Source of the DNA: Deltaproteobacteria bacterium
Lineage (GTDB): Bacteria > Desulfobacterota > Desulfobulbia > Desulfobulbales > Desulfobulbaceae
NCBI GenBank assembly: GCA_024277485.1
Contig: JAJRVA010000193.1
Coordinates: 1 to 17,432 of the forward strand
Reading direction: 5' to 3'
Length of the DNA stretch: 17,432 bases
Of this stretch, positions 12,648 to 15,655 are shown one piece after another. A program made the position numbers and the translations under genes. The notes beneath the pieces were generated by a model that did no database searches, was not told the DNA's origin, and worked only from the letters and a program-made list of their open reading frames with translations. The first letter of the stretch is position 1, and each line of letters opens with the position of its first letter.

Positions 12648-14870
12648 ATGGCAACAAAAACAGCCTCCCACAGAAGAACAACCGTCAAAGACCAGTCCGG
12701 GGCCGGCAAGCTCAAAATCGGCGAACTGCTCAGCAAAGCCGGGTATATCACGGCCCACCAGTTTGACCAGGCCAAGGCTGAACAGAAAAAGAACGGCAGG
12801 CGCCTGAGCCATATTCTGCTTGACAACGGGTATATCGAACAGGATACCGTTGTCAACTTCCTGAGCAGGATGCACAACTATCCTGCCGTAACCATCTCCA
12901 AAGAACCGCCCAGCGAAGATGCCATCAAGCTGATGTCCTACGATGTCGCCAAGAGATTCATGGCCTTTCCCCTGCGGATCGCCGGCAATACTCTCCAGGT
13001 GACCATGGCTGAGCCGACCAATACGCAGGAGGTCGAGGAACTGCAGGAGATCGTCAAGAAAGGCCTGAACGTCTGCGTTTCCACGGCCAAGGACATTATT
13101 GACGCCTACCGGGACTACTACAAGATAGATGACGAGGAGTACAGATCCTTCTTTACCCAGAATGAAGACCAGGAAGAGGAGGAGACCCCGGTTACCCAGG
13201 TGGATGACTTCGGGGCGCTGGTGTCGGATGCTGCCGAGGATTTCGAAATCGCCTCGGATGAAGAAACAGAGGGCCCGGAACAGTTCTCCGCCTCTGATGC
13301 GCCGATCATCAAGCTGGTGAACGGTATCCTGATCAAGGCGGTCCAGGAAGGGGTCAGTGATATCCATATCGAACCCTTTGAAAAATCCATGCAGGTTCGC
13401 TACCGTAAAGACGGATCCCTGTTCAAGTCAATGAACCTGCCGCTGACCATCAAGAACGCCCTGATCGCCCGCATGAAAATCCTGGCTGATCTCAATATCA
13501 CCGAAAGAAGAATCCCGCAGGACGGCCGTATCAAGATGCGGGTCGGCCGCAACAGGGCAGTGGATTTTCGTGTCTCGACCCTTCCCCTGCTCCACGGCGA
13601 GGGCATAGTCCTCCGTATCCTGGACAAGAGTTCGCTCAACGTTGACCTGACCATGCTGGGCTTTGAGCCGGAAACCTTCACCATGCTCAAGCGCTGCCTT
13701 GCCAGGCCCCAGGGACTCCTGCTTGTTACCGGGCCGACAGGTTCCGGTAAAACGGTTACCCTCTATTCCGCCCTCAACTCCCTGAACAAGGAAGATATCA
13801 AGATCCTGACTGCGGAAGATCCCGTTGAGTTCAACTTCAGGGGCATAAACCAGGTCAACGTGAACGTCGAGGTCGGCATGACCTTCCCGGCCGCCCTGAA
13901 GGCCTTTCTCCGCCAGGATCCGGATATCATCATGGTCGGTGAGATTCGAGACATCGACACCGCGGAAATCGCCATGAAGGCCGCCATGACCGGTCATCTT
14001 GTCTTCTCCACCCTGCATACCAATGACGCGCCCTCTTCGGTCAGCCGTATGATTGATATCGGCATACCGCCATACCTGTTAGCCGGCTCCCTGACCATGG
14101 TCCTGGCCCAGCGTCTCGGCCGCCGCCTGTGCGTCAAGTGCAAAACCGTTGTTGAACACGACCCCAAAGAACTTTTAGCTGCCGGTTTCCGCGAAGAAGA
14201 ACTTGAAGGGCTGGTAACCTACGGGGCAGTGGGCTGTCCCGAATGCAACGGCCTGGGGTACAAGGGGAGGGTCGGCTTCTTCGAACTCCTGGAGGTCACC
14301 GAAGAGGTGGCAAAGGCCATTGCCGCTGAAGTGCCCGAAGACCAGCTCTACAAGGTTTCCGTCAAGGAAGGGCTGGTGCCCCTGCGCCACGCCGCCCTCA
14401 AGAAAGTTGCCCAGGGCATAACCAGCCTTGAGGAGGCCCTGCGCCGAACGGTCATCAGGGAAGAGAGCATGCCCGCCTACCTGGTCAATCCTGATACCGA
14501 AGAGTACGAGGATGGAGGTGTCATCATCCAGGAGGGCAACAAGGACAATGATTTTTTCAAGCTCGTCCGCGGCAAGGTCGCTGTCCTCAAGGGAGGCAAA
14601 AAGATAGCCGAGATCACGGAACCCGGTGATTACTTCGGGGAGATGGCTGCCATCTCGGCCGAGCCCCGCTTTGCCTCAATCGTCTCCATGGGTCGTACTG
14701 CGGTAACCCGCTATCCCGGCGACAAGCTTATGGAACTGCTGGAAAAATATCCGGATGTTGCACGAAAAATGTTCAGAACACTTGTCACGCGCCTGCAGAA
14801 AACCGATCGCCTGGTCGTCAAGCTGGCCAATGGCGGACGGGCACGGCCGAAAGTCGTCCGACGTGCATGA
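12648..14870 (+). CDS. GspE/PilB-family secretion or pilus ATPase with N-terminal MshEN motifs and C-terminal cyclic-nucleotide-binding domain
   Basis: A 740-residue hexameric AAA-type motor of the type II secretion/type IV pilus class. Residues 23-46 and 52-75 are two 24-residue MshEN-type motifs (KIGELL..G.I...Q...Q and RL...LL..G.I) separated by exactly five residues, the c-di-GMP-binding layout of MshE. An acidic linker spans about 160-215. The ATPase has Walker A GPTGSGKT (362-369), Asp box TAEDPVE (388-394), Walker B DIIMVGEIRD (426-435), His box TGHLVFSTLHTND (448-460) and zinc cysteines C495, C498, C530 and C533. PilB proteins usually end after residue 600. Here a CRP-like domain follows (about 612-725) with phosphate-binding cassette FGEMAAISAEPRFAS, keeping Glu665 and Arg674. 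The start has no Shine-Dalgarno sequence and an in-frame TAA lies just upstream. The gene overlaps the next glycosyltransferase by ATGA. No pilus or secretion genes are visible nearby, so the exact machine is unknown. Confidence 0.93.
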   Translation: MATKTASHRRTTVKDQSGAGKLKIGELLSKAGYITAHQFDQAKAEQKKNGRRLSHILLDNGYIEQDTVVNFLSRMHNYPAVTISKEPPSEDAIKLMSYDVAKRFMAFPLRIAGNTLQVTMAEPTNTQEVEELQEIVKKGLNVCVSTAKDIIDAYRDYYKIDDEEYRSFFTQNEDQEEEETPVTQVDDFGALVSDAAEDFEIASDEETEGPEQFSASDAPIIKLVNGILIKAVQEGVSDIHIEPFEKSMQVRYRKDGSLFKSMNLPLTIKNALIARMKILADLNITERRIPQDGRIKMRVGRNRAVDFRVSTLPLLHGEGIVLRILDKSSLNVDLTMLGFEPETFTMLKRCLARPQGLLLVTGPTGSGKTVTLYSALNSLNKEDIKILTAEDPVEFNFRGINQVNVNVEVGMTFPAALKAFLRQDPDIIMVGEIRDIDTAEIAMKAAMTGHLVFSTLHTNDAPSSVSRMIDIGIPPYLLAGSLTMVLAQRLGRRLCVKCKTVVEHDPKELLAAGFREEELEGLVTYGAVGCPECNGLGYKGRVGFFELLEVTEEVAKAIAAEVPEDQLYKVSVKEGLVPLRHAALKKVAQGITSLEEALRRTVIREESMPAYLVNPDTEEYEDGGVIIQEGNKDNDFFKLVRGKVAVLKGGKKIAEITEPGDYFGEMAAISAEPRFASIVSMGRTAVTRYPGDKLMELLEKYPDVARKMFRTLVTRLQKTDRLVVKLANGGRARPKVVRRA

Positions 14871-15655
14871 GCAAAGTCTCTGTCTATATTATAGCCTACA
14901 ACGAATCCAAAAAGATCGGACCGGCAATAAACTCTGTTCTCTGGGCGGATGAAATTGTTGTCGTTGACTCCTGCAGCCAGGACGATACGGCGGATATTGC
15001 CTCGAAAATGGGGGCCCGCGTTGTCCAGATCGATTTCCATGGCTTCGGCGACCTGCGTAACCGGGCCATGGAGGCATGTTCACATGACTGGATTTTCTCC
15101 CTTGACGCCGACGAGCGATGCACGCCCGAGGCCAGGGATGAAATCCTGGCGACCACTGCTGATCCGCATGCCGGGGACGCCTATTATATCCCCCGGCGCA
15201 ACTATTTCATGGGCCGCTGGATCAAGCATTCCGGTTTTTATCCCGACTATCGTCAGCCGCAGCTCTTCAAAAAGGGGGCTCTGGTCTTCAAGGATGACCC
15301 GGTTCATGAGGAATACAGTATCATCTCAGACCGGCCGGCCGGTTACCTGAAACAGCCCATCTGGCAGTTTCCTTTTAAAAACCTGGAAGAAGTGATCCAC
15401 AAATCCAACAGGTACTCGACACTCGGGGCGGAAAAGCTTTCACAAAACGGGAGGCATACCTCCATGATGAATGCGTTGATGCGGGCTCTCTGGTCTTTCT
15501 TTCAGATGTACATTCTTAAAAAAGGGATCCTGGACGGCTGGCCGGGCATTGTCATTGCCCTGGGAAACTTTAACGGTACTTTTTACAAGTATGCCAAACT
15601 GCACGAACTGCAGTCAGACTGGCAGCCTCCTCCTTCGCCGCCGCTGCGACGATGA
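14867..15655 (+). CDS. GT2-family glycosyltransferase, LPS-core type (WaaE/KdtX-like)
   Basis: A 262-residue GT-A-fold transferase. The N-terminus VSVYIIAYNESKKIGPAINS and DEIVVVDSCSQDDTADIA form the nucleotide-sugar-binding half, and SLDADERCTPE carries the DxD-type motif (Asp80, Asp82). The later segments YIPRRNYFMGRWIKHSGFYPD, LFKKGALVF and VHEEY match the LPS-core glucosyltransferase group (WaaE/KdtX) that adds a sugar to the inner-core heptose or Kdo. It would act at the cytoplasmic face of the inner membrane; a hydrophobic or amphipathic stretch near 205-235 may touch the membrane. The start overlaps the ATPase stop by four bases, so the two are likely co-translated. A GspE-type ATPase is an unexpected partner, but the nearby heptosyltransferase supports an LPS role. 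The sugar donor and acceptor cannot be read from sequence. Confidence 0.85.
   Translation: MSKVSVYIIAYNESKKIGPAINSVLWADEIVVVDSCSQDDTADIASKMGARVVQIDFHGFGDLRNRAMEACSHDWIFSLDADERCTPEARDEILATTADPHAGDAYYIPRRNYFMGRWIKHSGFYPDYRQPQLFKKGALVFKDDPVHEEYSIISDRPAGYLKQPIWQFPFKNLEEVIHKSNRYSTLGAEKLSQNGRHTSMMNALMRALWSFFQMYILKKGILDGWPGIVIALGNFNGTFYKYAKLHELQSDWQPPPSPPLRR

Follow-up and report, generated by a model that had tools for sequence, protein, structure and literature searches.

By its sequence, the protein studied here is the extension ATPase of a type IVa pilus system (PilB), from a bacterium near Desulfobulbaceae, and carries a C-terminal domain of the CRP/PKA type. Its gene occupies positions 12648..14870 on the + strand of the window (the whole stretch of 17,432 nt that was analysed) and encodes 740 amino acids plus stop from an ATG start. 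We put at about one in two the probability that this motor has gained an input for a cyclic mononucleotide, most likely cAMP, and that its c-di-GMP input is probably weak or lost in this lineage. The ligand of the cyclic-nucleotide-binding (CNB) domain would be a 3',5'-cyclic mononucleotide, with cAMP from class III cyclases as the likeliest candidate. Once bound, it would move the C-helix that adjoins the C-terminal region of the ATPase, the shift would alter the ATPase cycle of the hexamer or its assembly, and pilus extension would be switched at the motor itself and not via transcription. The N-terminal c-di-GMP site would be an inheritance, probably weak or lost in the lineage of the window. 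Such a coupling of C-helix movement to the ATPase is plausible as a switch for extension; no path between the domains is predicted, since the model of the full-length protein is too uncertain (pTM 0.48). A broader version of this reading combines cAMP-type gating of the motor with one ancient fusion common to Desulfobacterota and Nitrospinota and with a c-di-GMP input that decayed separately in several lineages, the window's included; we advance it tentatively, at somewhat less than even odds.

A PilB ATPase with an appended domain

Pfam finds three domains in the 740-residue protein, each above its own cut-off and all on the + strand: an MshEN stretch at residues 76-162 (12873..13133, E 1.5e-14), the GspE/PilB ATPase core T2SSE at residues 215-599 (13290..14444, E 1.4e-132), and cNMP_binding (PF00027) at residues 618-701 (14499..14750, E 1.6e-14). 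The sequence-only reading had described a PilB-like ATPase set between MshEN motifs and a CRP-like domain and had suggested a search with these three profiles; the open reading frame, Pfam, and NCBIfam bear that description out. Considering the E-values of the domains and the conservation of the architecture across hundreds of relatives, it is not a product of chance.

The same reading had proposed a pilus or secretion motor. The pilus part stands, as the protein scores 751.8 bits with the PilB equivalog TIGR02538 (curated cut-off 675.65, NCBIfam). The secretion part does not: the score with the GspE equivalog TIGR02533 is 543.1 bits, below its curated cut-off of 630.25 (NCBIfam), and a type II secretion motor was rejected on this basis. 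The claim of a complete ATPase core agrees with the T2SSE match and with the intact state of the Walker A motif (residues 362-369, K368), GEIRD at 431 (with E432 as the Walker B Glu), and the cysteines at 495, 498, 530, and 533. K368, E432, and the four cysteines are unchanged in all 345 ungapped rows of fused proteins. The closest solved structures are of PilB (e.g. 5zfr and 6olj, which we take to be the Geobacter proteins), with alignments running from residues 21-22 to 603, and the C-terminal part matches domains of cGMP- and cAMP-dependent kinases.

Each of the 19 genomes examined has exactly one match above the PilB cut-off, which is the fused gene; other PilB-, GspE-, and PilT-like matches score below. 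A second PilB-like ATPase lacking the CNB domain occurs in 18 of these 19 genomes, with 602-643 bits, under the PilB cut-off. In an alignment of 13 such second copies (L115-L127), the first contact of MshEN motif I is never Arg.

Spread and origin of the fusion

Of 1427 candidates in a search with residues 604-740, 1242 proteins reached E <= 0.001. The best 120 of the 1242 all carry T2SSE and cNMP_binding, and most also MshEN; several of these relatives are named PilB (in Desulfobulbaceae, Desulfobulbus, Desulfogranum, and the like) and one, from Desulfobulbus propionicus, is named cyclic nucleotide-binding protein. At the reference-genome loci, the relative reaches into the CNB domain in 50 of 51 cases, the exception being L051, and the fusion loci include the cable bacteria Electrothrix and Electronema. 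In the class of the nearest relative, taken as Desulfobulbia, 174 of 193 genomes match the C-terminal third at E <= 1e-90, a count that rests on score, and among the matches listed (E <= 5.1e-102) every one spans the CNB domain. The other 19 genomes have weaker best matches; in one of them, G010, the frame of the copy at locus L042 is broken. In this copy (L042:9821, Candidatus Electrothrix aarhusensis) the ATPase and the CNB domain lie in different frames, with a break near residue 610 that is either real or an assembly error.

At the level of the phylum, 345 genomes were searched, and residues 600-740 have a match at 1e-12 in 74 of them. By frame, 27 of the 74 are fusions (736-985 aa, and one of 459 aa near a contig end) and the others are shorter frames; all 13 of the 27 that were examined at full length span the CNB domain. 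Searches from divergent members recovered T2SSE with cNMP_binding, mostly together with MshEN, in Nitrospinae/Nitrospinota, Candidatus Adiutrix, and Deltaproteobacteria. The survey of co-occurrence that the sequence-only reading had called for thus shows a common fusion, in Desulfobacterota and Nitrospinota, and a rare one-off event was rejected given its presence in 174 of 193 class genomes (by score), in Adiutrix-like bacteria, and in Nitrospinota. In a search of at least 5000 plasmid records, the eight matches listed were all ordinary PilB/GspE matches, in which the alignment ends at residue 601. The 20 unfused relatives have tails of 0-3 residues past position ~603, where unfused PilB ends. 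Four fused proteins that are Adiutrix-like by tree (L088, L089, L090, and L091) have about 300 residues after the ATPase; in the two inspected, an extended tail with much Ala, Pro, or Gly comes after the CNB domain.

Phylogenies were built on thinned sets of 65 and 56 rows; set A1 comprised 39 of the 62 usable loci and set A2 40 of the 303 proteins found, and one row set was built without proteins of <=680 aa and without L037, L042, L050, and L051, which are incomplete, broken in frame, or unfused. In a tree of residues 76-603, which excludes both sensory sites, the 30 fused rows form one clade (SH-aLRT 100), 18 of the 20 unfused PilB fall in one sister clade, and the second PilB-like copies also stand apart. 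A second tree, which takes in ten rows from Nitrospinota, again unites all 39 fused rows in one clade (100). Since all fused rows group together, these trees suggest that the fusion of PilB to the CNB domain most likely arose once.

The putative nucleotide sites at the N-terminus and the C-terminus

The two MshEN motifs of 24 residues lie where the sequence-only reading had put them, on the + strand, with motif I at residues 23-46 (12714..12785), motif II at residues 52-75 (12801..12872), and a spacer of five residues. The 53-residue c-di-GMP motif model NF053729 matches residues 23-74 with 49.4 bits, against a cut-off of 38. According to the available part of Wang 2016 (PMC5013675), the contacts of Vibrio cholerae MshE are R9, L10, G11, L25, L29, Q32, R38, L39, G40, L54, L58, and Q61. 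The window protein has K23, I24, G25, F39, K43, and Q46 at these positions in motif I, and R52, L53, S54, V68, L72, and M75 in motif II. Five of the 12 contacts are thus exact (the equivalents of G11, Q32, R38, L39, and L58), or nine if conservative changes count, and the full Arg/Leu/Gly/Gln contact set of c-di-GMP-binding MshEN domains is not kept. The second copy had been called the weaker one for its Ser in place of Gly and Met in place of Gln. Both changes are present, at G40 and Q61, together with Val at L54; motif I, for which that reading listed no change, departs as well, at R9 (Lys), L10 (Ile), L25 (Phe), and L29 (Lys). The non-conservative changes are K43, S54, and M75.

A single motor might integrate both messengers, c-di-GMP through the N-domain and a cyclic mononucleotide through the C-domain, as the sequence-only reading had proposed. 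The NF053729 match above cut-off and the five exact contacts speak for it, GGDEF proteins occur in 39 of 39 class genomes, and perfect conservation of the contacts may not be needed for binding, as far as the accessible text of Wang 2016 goes (PMC5013675). However, only 5 of 12 contacts are kept, and L29K, G40S, and Q61M sit at positions altered in XpsE, whose loss of c-di-GMP binding is ascribed, in the part of that article available, to changes including L29R, G40L, and Q61V (PMC5013675). In PilF, the available text of PMC12002112 reports that the Gln positions are required for binding of c-di-GMP and the third Gly for high affinity.

Fused proteins keep on average 5.90 contacts (333 rows) against 9.58 in unfused PilB (19 rows), after removal of rows with gaps at contacts (13 of the 346 fused, 1 of the 20 unfused). 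The 53-residue stretch has 41 positions besides the contacts. Compared with these, the contacts of unfused PilB are better conserved (entropy 0.94 vs 1.68, p 0.006), whereas those of fused representatives show no such advantage (1.50 vs 1.67, p 0.23), with p-values that ignore shared descent. As the fused proteins form one clade, this lack of special conservation counts as one event and not as many. We rejected the idea of a decay of the contacts that outpaces the rest of the protein, since 2808 of 5000 draws of matched columns were as low or lower. We regard integration of two messengers by the window protein as rather unlikely: the cassette of the cyclic-nucleotide half is canonical-looking and invariant, and the c-di-GMP half is weak.

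Some relatives make a better case. NF053729 continues to recognise 35 of 41 fused sequences, including that of the window protein, and 20 of 20 unfused ones (E <= 8e-10), which counts against a lost c-di-GMP input. The contact changes differ by lineage (KIGFK... in Desulfobulbaceae, ILGLT... or LIGLT... in Adiutrix-like bacteria, VLGLE... in some Nitrospinota), and, with conservative changes allowed, all 12 contacts are satisfied in 26 of 333 fused rows. Among the 13 fused proteins listed, two from Nitrospinae, P0158 and P0303, keep 11 of 12 contacts exactly. They are, by their residues, the best candidates that we have seen for a true two-messenger pilus motor, and integration of both signals is better argued for such Nitrospinota relatives than for the window protein. 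Considering these lineage-specific changes, the rows that fit the 12 contacts, and P0158 and P0303, the ancestor could probably read both messengers, some relatives may still do so, and the c-di-GMP input was probably weakened or lost in the lineage of the window.

The CNB domain has a predicted CRP-like fold and a phosphate-binding cassette at residues 664-676 (14637..14675, + strand; G664, E665, R674, A676). The Glu665 and Arg674 reported from the letters alone are both present, in a Pfam domain above cut-off, and the cassette is invariant in relatives: none of the 345 ungapped fused rows departs from Gly664, Glu665, or Arg674, and the pattern Gly-Glu ... Arg-Ala is found in 344-345 of them. 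These counts exclude proteins of <680 aa and the window's own entry (P0001); L004, which as extracted lacks the CNB stretch, is the single gap, and the 346 fused rows represent 316 distinct sequences over residues 200-701, some proteins having been entered twice. The domain likely binds a 3',5'-cyclic mononucleotide, judging from its residues. Its closest solved relatives by sequence are mostly domains of cGMP- and cAMP-dependent kinases, and its fold matches include cAMP-bound Vfr, CAP, PycTIR, and cUMP-bound HCN2. The residue after the cassette Arg is small in well-known CNB domains (Ser in CRP, Thr in PKG, Ala in PKA), a feature that is typical of them rather than defining. Here it is Phe675, at a position that presumably sits beside the base, and the family varies (S148 T82 F59 N23 Y11 and others), which makes the ligand unsure and the pocket possibly altered.

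On the balance of probability, cAMP would be the ligand. The alternative, in which the domain reads cGMP, cCMP, or cUMP and all else in the preferred explanation holds, draws on the cGMP-dependent kinases, presumably apicomplexan, among the best sequence matches to solved structures and on PycTIR and cUMP-bound HCN2 among the fold matches. We consider it unlikely, since the six cyclases matched in the genomes of five relatives all have a Lys/Thr pair, which we take to be adenylate-type. The cyclase motif pattern is present in 6 of the 12 loci checked; against the preferred explanation, four class genomes in which the fusion is called by score showed neither a class I nor a class III cyclase.

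The domain might instead bind no nucleotide and have a structural or docking role towards the hexamer or polar partners. This is improbable, as docking would hardly explain a Gly-Glu-Arg-Ala signature that is invariant over >300 distinct proteins from two phyla. Very improbable is a C-terminal domain that binds c-di-GMP as in Xanthomonas Clp, the input having moved rather than been replaced, given a cassette of the classical cyclic-mononucleotide type and closest structures that are mostly cGMP- and cAMP-dependent kinase domains by sequence and cAMP-bound Vfr and CAP by fold.

Neighbouring genes and known systems

We recognised no other pil genes in the 17,432-nt window, which, like the metal-transporter neighbours of L088 described below, speaks against the preferred reading. 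A family 2 glycosyltransferase gene (14867..15655, + strand) overlaps the end of the fused gene by four bases; at 42 of 49 reference-genome loci the fused gene is likewise followed by one of this family, some of the others ending first. Loci of the Desulfobulbaceae type place the fused gene among housekeeping and glycosyltransferase genes. Further along the window lies a heptosyltransferase-like gene, below all curated cut-offs. The gene order thus couples a pilus motor to a probable envelope-sugar gene, the glycosyltransferase, which is not known to take part in the mechanism.

The fused gene is in a pilus context in several relatives. The neighbour scan with Pfam covered five outgroup loci, the other outgroup loci with a fused pilB being viewed as translated frames only. 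Downstream of the fused gene, L084, L086, and L087 have pilM (TIGR01175, 242-274 bits vs a cut-off of 133), followed in L084 by a prepilin peptidase. L083 has a T2SSF/PilC-type gene (583 bits, under the PilC model cut-off of 700 and also under that of GspF) and then a PilS-like kinase; L088 has metal-transporter genes. In at least seven genomes (G007, G008, G017, G018, G021, G044, and G060), a class III cyclase lies ~14-26 kb downstream of the fused gene in the opposite orientation, and the catalytic motif pattern is present in the downstream cyclases of L144, L145, and L146. This arrangement may be plain synteny.

Both c-di-GMP and cAMP steer surface life. If the preferred reading, a cyclic-mononucleotide input gained by the motor, is true, cAMP could set pilus extension without an intermediary, through a pocket in the motor itself, and such a pocket would be an example of how one second-messenger input can replace another in a molecular motor. 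The fusion concerns a large group of sulfur-cycling bacteria, including cable bacteria, and a second phylum, Nitrospinota. In the literature searched, mostly that outside subscription journals and in part only as partial text, we found no functional account of a PilB that carries a cNMP domain, and the sequence-only reading had likewise known of no characterised protein with this combination. Each part is known, and databases, which usually call the protein PilB, record the combination as no more than an architecture.

With PilB (TIGR02538; 5zfr, 5tsg, 3jc8) the window protein shares the N-domain, the GspE-type ATPase, all core motifs, and a score above the cut-off, but unfused PilB ends at ~603 in the alignment and the window protein continues into the CNB domain. 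From the available text on MshE and other MshEN receptors (PMC5013675), among which the accessible part of PMC10519070 counts Clostridium perfringens PilB2, it has in common the domain family and two 24-residue motifs with a 5-residue spacer; it differs in keeping 5 of 12 contacts, in a fused clade where special conservation of the contacts is not seen. The CNB domains of CRP/Vfr, PKA, PKG, HCN, SthK, and PycTIR have the same fold and phosphate-binding cassette, but are attached to a DNA-binding domain, a kinase, a channel, or TIR, and here to a pilus motor. To our knowledge, known cAMP control of pili acts through transcription factors, and in Pseudomonas it runs through transcription by way of Vfr. 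In Synechocystis, the transcription factors Sycrp1/2 link cAMP to type IV pili, according to the available part of PMC7690835. These systems and the one proposed here alike tie cAMP to type IV pili, but in the former the receptor is a separate transcription factor, whereas here it would be part of the motor.
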